Positions 35,456-51,614 of a stretch of DNA of 64,000 nucleotides are shown in pieces. Location of the stretch: assembly GCA_020850595.1 (NCBI GenBank), contig JADZEK010000031.1, forward strand, positions 1 to 64,000, in the 5' to 3' direction. The notes beneath the pieces were generated by a model. That model was not told the DNA's origin, ran no database searches, and was given only the letters and a program-made list of their open reading frames with translations. Within the stretch, counting starts at the first letter, position 1. Every line of letters begins with the position of its first letter. The position numbers were made by a program, and so were the translations under genes. The DNA comes from Anaerolineales bacterium (lineage in GTDB: Bacteria; Chloroflexota; Anaerolineae; Anaerolineales; UBA6663).

Positions 35456-35504
35456 GGATTTTTCCACGAATTGACACGAATGGGCAGGCGAATGAGCACG
35501 AAGG
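35456..35504 (+). repeat. CACGAAT dispersed repeat, copy E
   Basis: GGATTTTTCCACGAAT, TGACACGAATGG, then degenerate units GGCGAATG and AGCACGAAGG. It starts 11 bases after the GH31 stop and lies between convergent genes, unlike copies A, B, D and F, which precede genes. Confidence 0.83.
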
Positions 35505-35608: not shown

Positions 35609-36016
35609 TCAGTTGATCTGACGGCTTCGCTGTTCTGCGTGCCACAGCAAGATCGCCAGATGGCGCGGCACGACGCGCTGGGTGGACAGGTCGCTGAGCC
35701 GCCAGAAAGCCTAGCGCTGCCCCTCGCGTAGTTGCGCCTGCCCGAGGTCGGGCAGGGCCGCGCAGTGGAAGATGTGCGCCCCGATGTCTCCGTCTACATA
35801 GAGCCTGAGATAGCGCAGTTGGGCTTCCAGCAGCGTCAAACCGAGTTCTTCGTTGATCTCGCGCTGAAGGCATTGCAGCGGCGTCTCGCCTGGCTCGCTC
35901 CACCCGCCGAACAGCCCCCAGTGGCGGGCGTAGGCCACGTCTGGCCGGTCGTCGCGCAGTTGCAGGGCGTAGCGTCCGGCGGCGTCTTGCAGCAGGAGCA
36001 CCGCGCCAGAGCGCAT
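35609..36016 (-). pseudogene. Nudix hydrolase interrupted by an in-frame TAG
   Basis: From the ATG at 36016 a Nudix domain reads through GGWSEPGE and REINEELGL, the complete Nudix box that binds the metal. The frame stops at TAG (35711-35713) after LREGQR, giving only 101 residues. The same frame continues without interruption as AFWRLSDLSTQRVVPRHLAI and further, to a TGA at 35609-35611. The restored length of 135 residues (counting the TAG codon) is normal for the family, and the downstream part has the expected C-terminal helix. A one-base change in a sense codon explains the TAG. The truncated form keeps the catalytic box but lacks the last strand and helix. An error in the sequence is possible. 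Confidence 0.8.
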
Positions 36017-36027
36017 GGTCGGGCGCG

Positions 36028-36837
36028 CTAGGCCAACTGCGCAGTGAGGAGGCCGCGCACGTCGGCGCAGCGCTCGCAGCCGGGGCGGCGGCAGAGCAGG
36101 GCTTCGGGTTCGCGGCGCAGGAGGGCGACGGCGGCGTCTATCAGCTCGGCCAGCGGCAGGCGCTCGACGCGGGCCGCGCCGATCTGCGTTACACGGTGCA
36201 GCGGGCGGACGAGGGGCGCGGCGGCGTGGAAGCCATCTGGGCAGCCGGGGCAGGCCACGCACTCGACGATGCCGCCGGGGGTGAGCGCCCAGCGGATGAA
36301 CTGCTTGCGCCCGGCGCGGGCCTCGGCGGAGTGCCGCGCCAGGTTGGCGCTCGGCTCCGCGCCGATGAGGAGCAACTCGCCGCCGCGCCCGGGCTGGGCC
36401 AGGTGGGCCAGCGGCCCCAGCGGTTCGGCCAGGCTCTGTGCGGCGAGGGTGAGCGCGGCGTCGGCGCCGACGGCCACGAAGGAGTACAGCGGGTGGGTGG
36501 AGCGCTGCGCGCCGGGCGCGTGGCGCAGGGCCTCGCCCAGGCCGGTGGTGGGGGTGTGGGGCCGGAAGAATTCGGCGGCGGCGTTGTCGGCGGCGTGGTC
36601 GGCGTAGCGCGCGCCGTTGCGTTCTGGGCCGACGAGGGGCCAGACCTGGCATTGCGGCGTGAAGGCGGGCGCGACGACCAGGGCCGTGCCGGCGGCCAGC
36701 GCGCCGATGACGGTTTCGGCGCCGCCGCGCACCGGGCCGAGCGCGGCCAGGTCGCCCACGGCCAGCAGGCGGCTGTCGCGCGTTAGCCCCAGCGCCTGCA
36801 AGCCTTTCTGGATGTCGCGAAACGTGACGTCGGCCAC
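36028..36837 (-). CDS. AAC(3)-family N-acetyltransferase-like protein
   Basis: A 269-residue member of the aminoglycoside 3-N-acetyltransferase (Antibiotic_NAT) family. Family features are TVIGALAAGTALVVAPAFT, FFRPHTPTTGLGEALRHAPGAQRS and the active-site segment STHPLYSFVAVG, whose His is the conserved catalytic residue. The family includes chromosomal members such as YokD that do not cause resistance, so resistance is not implied. It has extra cysteines, CVACPGC and CRRPGCERC, that could bind a metal. The GTG at 36837 was chosen for the TAGGAG site eight bases upstream; the larger ORF runs into the upstream crotonase gene. Confidence 0.75.
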   Translation of the reverse strand: MADVTFRDIQKGLQALGLTRDSRLLAVGDLAALGPVRGGAETVIGALAAGTALVVAPAFTPQCQVWPLVGPERNGARYADHAADNAAAEFFRPHTPTTGLGEALRHAPGAQRSTHPLYSFVAVGADAALTLAAQSLAEPLGPLAHLAQPGRGGELLLIGAEPSANLARHSAEARAGRKQFIRWALTPGGIVECVACPGCPDGFHAAAPLVRPLHRVTQIGAARVERLPLAELIDAAVALLRREPEALLCRRPGCERCADVRGLLTAQLA

Positions 36838-36848
36838 GGCGTTGGCTC

Positions 36849-37628
36849 CTATTGGCCCTGCCACTGCGGCGGGCGCTTGGCGAGGAAGGCCGCCATGCCT
36901 TCCTTTTGGTCGGCGGTGCTGAACAGGAAGTAAAAGGCGCGGCGCTCGTCGGCCAGCCCGTCGGCCAGGTCGGTCTCGAAGGCGTTGTTGACGGACTCCT
37001 TGGCCAGCCGCACGGCCAGCGGGGCGCGGGCGGCGATCTCGGCGGCGAGGGCCAGCGCCTCGTCCAGGTAGCTTTCGACCGGGGCGACGCGGTTGACCAG
37101 GCCGAAGCGCACTGCCTCGGCGGCGGTGAGCGCGCGGCCGTTGAGCACCATCTCCATCGCCACGGCCTTGCCGACGGCGCGGGTGAGGCGCTGCGTGCCG
37201 CCCGCGCCGGGCATGACGCCCAGGTTGATCTCCGGCTGGCCGAAGCGGGCCGTCTCCGAGGCCACAATCAAATCGCAGGCCAGGGCCAGCTCGCAACCGC
37301 CGCCGAGGCAGAAGCCGGAGACGGCGGCGAGGAGGGGCTTTTTGAGCATGCGCAGGCGGTCCCAGCGGGCGATGTTGTCGCGCAGGAGCATGTCCACGGC
37401 GGAGGCGTCGGCCATCTCTTTGATGTCGGCCCCGGCGGCGAAGGCGCGGGCGCTGCCGGTGACGACGAGACAGCCAATGGCCGGGTCGCGGTCGAAGGCT
37501 TCGAGCGCGGTGACGAGCTGCTCCATGAGGGCGGCGTTGAGGGCGTTCAGTTCCTTGGGCCGGTTGAAGCGGACGAGGCCGACGCGGCCGTGGGTTTCGG
37601 CGAGGACAAGTTGGTCGTCAGTCGTCAT
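36849..37628 (-). CDS. Enoyl-CoA hydratase (PaaF-like)
   Basis: Crotonase-family hydratase of 259 residues. The oxyanion motif is FAAGADIKEM, and both catalytic glutamates are present: one in GGGCELALACD and one in PEINLGVMPGAGGTQRL. It ends with the usual EGMAAFLAKRPPQWQGQ. It should hydrate 2-enoyl-CoA to 3-hydroxyacyl-CoA in beta-oxidation or phenylacetate catabolism. The gene is 11 bases upstream of the AAC(3)-like gene and shares its transcript; the stop codon lies inside that gene's ribosome-binding region. It is the most canonical of the three crotonases in this window. Confidence 0.9.
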   Translation of the reverse strand: MTTDDQLVLAETHGRVGLVRFNRPKELNALNAALMEQLVTALEAFDRDPAIGCLVVTGSARAFAAGADIKEMADASAVDMLLRDNIARWDRLRMLKKPLLAAVSGFCLGGGCELALACDLIVASETARFGQPEINLGVMPGAGGTQRLTRAVGKAVAMEMVLNGRALTAAEAVRFGLVNRVAPVESYLDEALALAAEIAARAPLAVRLAKESVNNAFETDLADGLADERRAFYFLFSTADQKEGMAAFLAKRPPQWQGQ

Positions 37629-37708: not shown

Positions 37709-38200
37709 TCAGGCCGCCTGCTGGATGGCCACAAGGTGGCCTTGGGCGTGAAGGTAGGCGCGTTCGACCCACCACTGCACGGTGCGCTTGCCGCTGGGGG
37801 GGTGAAAGCCCAGCCGCCCCCAGCCCGCGGGCGGCAGCGGCCGCAGGCAGGCCAGCAGTTCGGTGCGCGCCTGCGACCAGGTCATCAGGATGGCGGTCAT
37901 CGGTTCAGCGGGGTCATAGCCGGCCGCCGACCAGTTGTGGTGCCAGGCGGCCGTGAGGGTGGGCAGGTCTTCGGCGAGGATTTGGCGCACGTGCGGCAGG
38001 TAGGCCAGGGCTTCCAGGTCGCGCAGGTGGGCGACGGCGAGGTGCACGGTGCGGCCGTCGGGCGTGTGGGCCAAGCGCCAGCGCGCGGCCGGGATGGGAG
38101 CCAGGGCGGCGGCCAGGGCAGCGGGCTGCTGCTCCAGCCGCGCCAGCAGTTCGGCCCGATATTCGAGGACGAGGTCTGTGGGGGGCGGGAGCGGGGTCAT
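37709..38200 (-). CDS. DinB-superfamily protein
   Basis: A four-helix DinB-type protein of 163 residues. Candidate metal-binding histidines are in RTVHLAVAHLRDLE, AAWHHNWSAAG and RAYLHAQGHLVAI, matching the early-helix and C-terminal H-x3-H pattern of the fold. DinB proteins act as thiol transferases or have unassigned roles. It lies 19 bases downstream of a second DinB-superfamily gene, though the two proteins share little sequence. The C-terminal WWVERAYLHAQGHL is the strongest family signature. Confidence 0.75.
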   Translation of the reverse strand: MTPLPPPTDLVLEYRAELLARLEQQPAALAAALAPIPAARWRLAHTPDGRTVHLAVAHLRDLEALAYLPHVRQILAEDLPTLTAAWHHNWSAAGYDPAEPMTAILMTWSQARTELLACLRPLPPAGWGRLGFHPPSGKRTVQWWVERAYLHAQGHLVAIQQAA

Positions 38201-38219
38201 GGGCGGGCCGAGGGGCAGG

Positions 38220-38705
38220 CTAGGCCGGCGGAGCGGCGCGCAGGACGTAGCTCAGGCGCACGCGCAGCATCTGGCTGAGGTGTTCCCAGGTGTGGCCCAG
38301 GGCGTATTGGGCGATCCACCCGGCGCTGATCGGGCCGCGGCTCGGGTGCGTGCCGGTCTTGTCCCAAGCGAGCGCGCCGAGTAGTTCGATTTCGGCCGCA
38401 CGGTCGGCCTGAAAGGCGGCCAACAGGTCGGCGCGGGGGGTGGCCGGGTTCCACTTTTCTTTTTGGTAAGCGACCTCGTCCACCAGCGGGAGGCGGGGCT
38501 GGTCGTGGGCGGCGATGGCCTGGAGGCGCGGCAGGAAGATGAAGTGTTCGGCGATCCAGAGGTGGGTCAGCACTTCGTGCTGGCTCCAATCGTGGTCGCT
38601 GGGCTTCCAGAGCGTGGCGCTCTCGGGCAGGCGGGCCATCTCGCGGGCCAGGTCATCGGCCGCGCCGCGGAGGTCGGCGAGGAGGGTGTCTTGGTCAGTG
38701 GTCAT
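38220..38705 (-). CDS. DinB-superfamily protein (DinB_2 type)
   Basis: A 161-residue DinB_2-like protein. The helical core carries the metal-site histidines in HEVLTHLWIAEHFIF and ALGHTWEHLSQM, the usual H-x-x-x-H arrangement with the late H-x-x-H. It starts at the ATG at 38705; the ORF-track start 23 codons further up falls within the previous gene. This is the more canonical of the two DinB-type proteins here and precedes the other by 19 bases. The upstream neighbour is a hypothetical protein whose stop is four bases away, so the run is a tight operon. Confidence 0.82.
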   Translation of the reverse strand: MTTDQDTLLADLRGAADDLAREMARLPESATLWKPSDHDWSQHEVLTHLWIAEHFIFLPRLQAIAAHDQPRLPLVDEVAYQKEKWNPATPRADLLAAFQADRAAEIELLGALAWDKTGTHPSRGPISAGWIAQYALGHTWEHLSQMLRVRLSYVLRAAPPA

Positions 38706-38709
38706 GGAT

Positions 38710-39531
38710 TCAGTCCTTCGGCTCCAGAGTCTGCGCCACCGCGTCCAATCCCTGCTTGCCGTGCAGGGCCGCAACGAGCGCGGGCAACTGCGGCAGGGCG
38801 CGGGTACGCTTCTCCATGAGCATGAATTGGTCGGCCGCGTCTGGCCCTTCGGCGGCGCGCAGGAAGAGCACGGCGGCGGCCAGCCCCAGCGGCGCGGCTT
38901 GCGCGGCGAGGGCCGGATGGCCGGCGGCGCGGGCGAACAGGGCGGCGGCCAGCGCCTCGGCCGCGGCCGCCAGGACCTCGTCGGGCCGGTCGGTGTAGCG
39001 CCACGGGGGCGAGGCGCCCCAGGCGGGCGGCGGCGGCAGGGTGAGCAACAGGCCGCCCGGCAGGCCTGACACGACGCGCTCGCGGCCGGGGTAGAGCAGG
39101 TGCGGGTAGGCGCACAGCACGGGCAGGGGCGGGCCGAACAGCTCGGCCAGGAACGCGCCCAGGTCGGCCCGCGCCAAGACCGCCGCCAGCTCGGTCTCGG
39201 CGGCCTGCCAGTCGGCGGCGGCGGCTGGTTCCAGCGCGGCGACTTCGGGCTGCTGCATGAAGTCGGCGACCTCGGCGGTCGCGGTGTGGGACCACGCGCC
39301 CTGCCCTACCGCGAAGAGCGCCGCCGCGCCGCCGGGGCCGAGCGCCACGGCCTGCGCTGAGAGGACGGCCGGGTGCGAGCGCAGTCCGCTGAGCGCCCGC
39401 CGGGCCGCCTCGGCCGCGCGATGCGGCTTGTAGGGCTTGCGGGCCTGCTCGGCCGCGGGCCAGCCGCCGGCCGCCAGCAGCAGCCCCGCCTGCCGGGCTT
39501 GGGCAAAGGGCCGCACCGCAATCACCGTCAC
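38710..39531 (-). CDS. Hypothetical protein, Ala/Leu-rich
   Basis: Not recognised. A 273-residue soluble protein that begins at a GTG overlapping the SDR stop (GTGA). The first part reads VTVIAVRPFAQARQAGLLLA, followed by an Ala-rich region with LGPGGAAALFAVGQGAWSH. The middle contains FGPPLPVLCAYPHLLYPGRERVV and a proline run LTLPPPPAWGASPPW. It has no signal peptide or obvious catalytic motif. Overlaps on both sides place it firmly in the operon with the degenerate SDR and the DinB genes, supporting that it is translated. Confidence 0.6.
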   Translation of the reverse strand: MTVIAVRPFAQARQAGLLLAAGGWPAAEQARKPYKPHRAAEAARRALSGLRSHPAVLSAQAVALGPGGAAALFAVGQGAWSHTATAEVADFMQQPEVAALEPAAAADWQAAETELAAVLARADLGAFLAELFGPPLPVLCAYPHLLYPGRERVVSGLPGGLLLTLPPPPAWGASPPWRYTDRPDEVLAAAAEALAAALFARAAGHPALAAQAAPLGLAAAVLFLRAAEGPDAADQFMLMEKRTRALPQLPALVAALHGKQGLDAVAQTLEPKD

Positions 39532-51520: not shown

Positions 51521-51561
51521 CGACAAAACAGCGAGGCGGCCATGCCCATCGCCTCCGCATC

Positions 51562-51614
51562 CCCATTCGTGTCCATTCGTTCTCAATTCGTGCGCATTCG
51601 TGGCAAAAATCCTC
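51562..51614 (-). repeat. CACGAAT dispersed repeat, copy F
   Basis: Read on the minus strand: GGATTTTTGCCACGAAT, GCGCACGAAT, TGAGAACGAATGG, ACACGAATGG. Four units, the longest copy. Its T-tract side faces the plus-strand gene starting at 51675, 62 bases away. Confidence 0.88.

Follow-up and report, generated by a model that had tools for sequence, protein, structure and literature searches.

An in-frame TAG in a Nudix hydrolase gene of an Anaerolineales genome, probably a recent nonsense mutation

The interrupted Nudix gene and its surroundings

The stretch of Anaerolineales DNA analysed here (64,000 nucleotides, hereafter the window) carries on its minus strand a gene for a Nudix hydrolase whose frame is interrupted by a TAG three quarters of the way along its 135 codons (Table 1). 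The minus-strand translation runs from an ATG at 36016 through 101 codons to the TAG, and then through 33 sense codons to a TGA at 35611-35609. A preliminary description of this DNA had recognised the gene, its extent, the in-frame TAG with an intact frame behind it and the total of 135 codons with the TAG counted, all of which are borne out by the translation; the strand, which had been left unstated, is minus, and the 34 residues that had been counted after the TAG are in fact 33. The plus-strand frame of the same interval also has a TAG, which is irrelevant to the Nudix gene. Position-specific GC content is coding-like on both sides of the stop, with values of 0.79/0.44/0.81 before it and 0.67/0.45/0.82 after it.

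Table 1. Features of the interrupted Nudix gene and the gene upstream of it, in window coordinates
Feature	Position	Strand	Basis or remarks
AAC(3)-like gene (PF02522 Antibiotic_NAT, E 3e-22)	36028..36870	minus	directly upstream of the Nudix gene; start approximate
Interrupted Nudix hydrolase gene	35609..36016	minus	translation, Pfam NUDIX, homologues
Nudix box GX5EX7REUXEEXGU, complete, residues 38-60 (GWSEPGETPLQCLQREINEELGL)	35837..35905	minus	read from the sequence
In-frame TAG, codon 102 of the Nudix gene	35711..35713	minus	relatives have F, W, Y or M here
Tail of 33 codons 3' of the TAG	35612..35710	minus	completes the last beta strand and adds a short helix and the C-terminal helix

The AAC(3)-like gene is flanked by the Nudix gene and by an enoyl-CoA hydratase gene. 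With 11 bases between the stop of the AAC(3)-like gene and the Nudix ATG, on the same strand, the two are likely to share a transcript. Elsewhere in the window there is a tandem pair of DinB-superfamily genes (PF12867) at 37709-38774, and an intergenic repeat of the CACGAATTGACACGAATGG type, built of CACGAAT units, occurs at 35465-35485 and 51561-51600; this repeat has five near-exact copies in the genome, and a control search with the reversed pattern returned none.

Membership of the Nudix family is clear from several lines of comparison. The Nudix box, which lies wholly 5' of the TAG, contains all of its motif residues (G38, E44, R52, E53, I54, E56, E57, G59 and L60), and G38, E44, R52, E53, E56 and E57 are invariant in an alignment with eight homologues. 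The NUDIX profile PF00293 matches the read-through protein over residues 4-111 (E 1.4e-10; 41.8 bits, cut-off 21.1), and it matches the truncated protein as well. Every NCBIfam equivalog cut-off is missed, including that of TIGR00586 (MutT, 8-oxo-dGTP diphosphatase), for which the protein scores 34.4 bits against 97.9. An AlphaFold2 model in which the TAG was read as W, built with six relatives in the alignment, has the complete alpha/beta/alpha Nudix fold (mean pLDDT 90.2, pTM 0.83), and from the TAG onwards it comprises a strand at 102-105, which starts at the TAG residue itself, and helices at 107-112 and 117-134. Foldseek matched this read-through model to MutT and NudI structures over the whole domain, with E values down to 2e-9. 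As modelled, the Nudix fold is complete only if the TAG is a residue, and the predicted 101-residue product is missing the final strand and the C-terminal helix. The gene thus shares with the MutT/NudI-like Nudix hydrolases (PF00293; 3r03, 3hhj, 4v14, 6dt3) a complete Nudix box and sequence and fold matches across the whole domain, and is unlike them in being broken by a TAG at codon 102.

Homology of the tail and relatives of the gene

An open frame behind a stop is frequent in GC-rich DNA, and the deciding test is the homology of the tail. In this GC-rich window at least 34 open in-frame codons follow 24 of the 49 predicted gene ends, with many of these extensions running into the next gene, so the openness of the tail means little and was dropped as evidence after this control; the evidence must therefore come from homology. 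Aligned with the tail of the closest relative (L112), the Nudix tail reaches a local score of 71, as high as none of 20,000 shuffles (maximum 48), and aligned with that of a second relative (L113) it scores 39, a value matched by 20 of 20,000 shuffles. The preliminary description had regarded the frame after the TAG as a Nudix C-terminus, and it is indeed homologous to the tails of intact relatives, far above shuffled sequence, and part of the domain. The ratio of identity after the site to identity before it is 0.71 for the window gene against L112 and 0.69 for the intact pair L112 and L113, a coarse comparison that draws on only about 30 tail residues. At this resolution the tail appears to have undergone no detectable drift, and the stop would therefore be recent, false or sometimes read through.

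The best relatives of the gene are G267/L112 (50% identical), L113 (39%) and a gene in genome G020 (39%), followed by more distant ones. L112 and L113 are loci of Anaerolineae metagenome-assembled genomes that were found by an alignment-based scan of genome contigs; a single-sequence scan of genome contigs gave no match, and a search of the five other family genomes yielded no strong relative. The gene is rare and patchily distributed. In the alignment all nine intact rows have a sense codon at the TAG column, one of them (L158) being the same gene as L112, hence eight intact relatives, and the residue there is F (TTT, TTC), W (TGG, twice), Y (TAT) or M. This tally omits ten more distant relatives that the motif rule could not extract and for which the search output contains no internal stops. 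Apart from the G020 gene, the homologues examined have no stop at the site and continue for at least 27 further residues. Alignment with the nearest homologues had been proposed at the outset, and among the intact ones all continue past the TAG and none ends at the same residue. Because the intact rows have a sense codon at this column and run on for at least 27 residues, the TAG interrupts a conserved domain.

The G020 relative (L002:1495-1920), the closest one within the order of the window genome, belongs to another family and has an in-frame TAG of its own at 1837-1839, followed by a tail that is still family-like; the score of this tail against L112 is reached by 71 of 20,000 shuffles. 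Its TAG aligns to the Gln codon for residue 112 of the window protein and not to codon 102, and it was on this ground ruled out as a conserved recoding site. It is the only one of 12 Nudix domains in G020 that contains a stop.

Decoding of TAG in the two genomes

The window genome (G000) encodes intact release factors RF1, with its VPSTES and GGQ motifs, and RF2. The use of TAG as a stop by other genes had been taken in the preliminary description to count against reassignment, and it does so: TAG ends 20 of the 52 predicted genes in the window, a mechanical and uncurated selection of open reading frames by GC3. No CUA tRNA is present among the 46 Rfam tRNA matches of the genome, all but one weak match having been typed by ARAGORN, and no match to the PylS profile TIGR02367 was found. 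This one weak tRNA-like match (31.6 bits), for which there is no ARAGORN call, lies near a contig end (L106; G000:C101:11231-11291). Stops are found inside none of the 109 ABC domains of the genome and inside one of its 11 Nudix domains, that of the window gene. In G020 there is likewise no CUA tRNA among the typed tRNAs, two weak or cut matches being untyped, and the PylS profile gives only a sub-threshold match.

Origin of the stop

The reading to which we give a probability of about two in three is that a recent nonsense mutation broke an ordinary MutT/NudI-like Nudix gene, whose 101-residue product ends at the TAG. A gene probably co-transcribed behind the AAC(3)-like gene would recently have gained the TAG where it previously had a codon for a probably aromatic residue; one base substitution in a Trp or Tyr codon would suffice. 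Translation would end at codon 102, as at the other TAG stops of the genome, and the resulting product would keep the catalytic Nudix box but be cut short before the final beta strand and C-terminal helix, and it would probably be unstable or inactive. This reading takes the TAG base to be real in the organism and the mutation to be recent, and the gene itself is best read as dispensable. The closest relative is only about 50% identical, and an undrifted tail is also expected from an assembly error or from occasional read-through. The options named in the preliminary description (recent nonsense mutation, error in sequencing, and read-through or reassignment), together with its stance against reassignment, agree with the tests. 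With the bacterial pseudogenes and purported pseudogenes of PMC11017572 the gene has in common a single internal stop, an otherwise intact frame and a homologous tail, and nothing sets it apart from them.

It is rather unlikely, if worth serious consideration, that the organism's gene is intact and that the TAG arose as an error in sequencing or assembly, or is a variant of a minority strain that entered the metagenome consensus. The assembly consists of 194 contigs with an estimated contamination of 9.58%, PMC11017572 documents spurious internal stops as an artefact of assembly, and the undrifted tail would fit. The assembly is, however, not rich in false stops, as the ABC and Nudix domain counts indicate.

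Leaky read-through of the TAG, which would yield some full-length Nudix protein and make the stop a brake on expression, is improbable. The undrifted tail fits this too, as does the G020 relative, whose own in-frame TAG is followed by a tail that is conserved in part, and in-frame stops in bacterial genes under continued purifying selection are reported in PMC7918605. As in those cases, a coding-like tail is kept past the stop; unlike them, the window TAG is not common to any close orthologue. Against read-through, the TAGs of the window gene and the G020 gene occupy different codons, so there is no conserved recoding site, the other relatives are without a TAG, and the search for a CUA tRNA in both genomes found none. 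Read-through, if demonstrated, would make this a native example of expression of a housekeeping-type hydrolase being damped by a stop codon, but nothing here requires it. Still harder to credit is the broader idea that a TAG near the C-terminus recurs in a small Anaerolineae Nudix subfamily because a read-through or truncated form is tolerated or used, with the stop as a brake on expression.

Reassignment of TAG, or its use for pyrrolysine, in the lineage could draw on the in-frame TAG in two members of one small family from one order, but it is ruled out by the tRNA census, the PylS search (the G020 synthetase match being sub-threshold only), the presence of RF1, the frequent use of TAG as a stop and the TAG-free conserved domains, and its chance is negligible. 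It is scarcely conceivable that the gene naturally makes a functional short Nudix protein of 101 residues, and this was likewise ruled out: although the whole Nudix box precedes the TAG, no relative ends at this site, and the fold is left without its last strand and its C-terminal helix.

Under the preferred reading, a recent nonsense mutation in the window gene, the TAGs of this gene and of its G020 relative are best explained, as far as two cases suggest, as nonsense mutations that arose independently in a gene that is dispensable and often lost.
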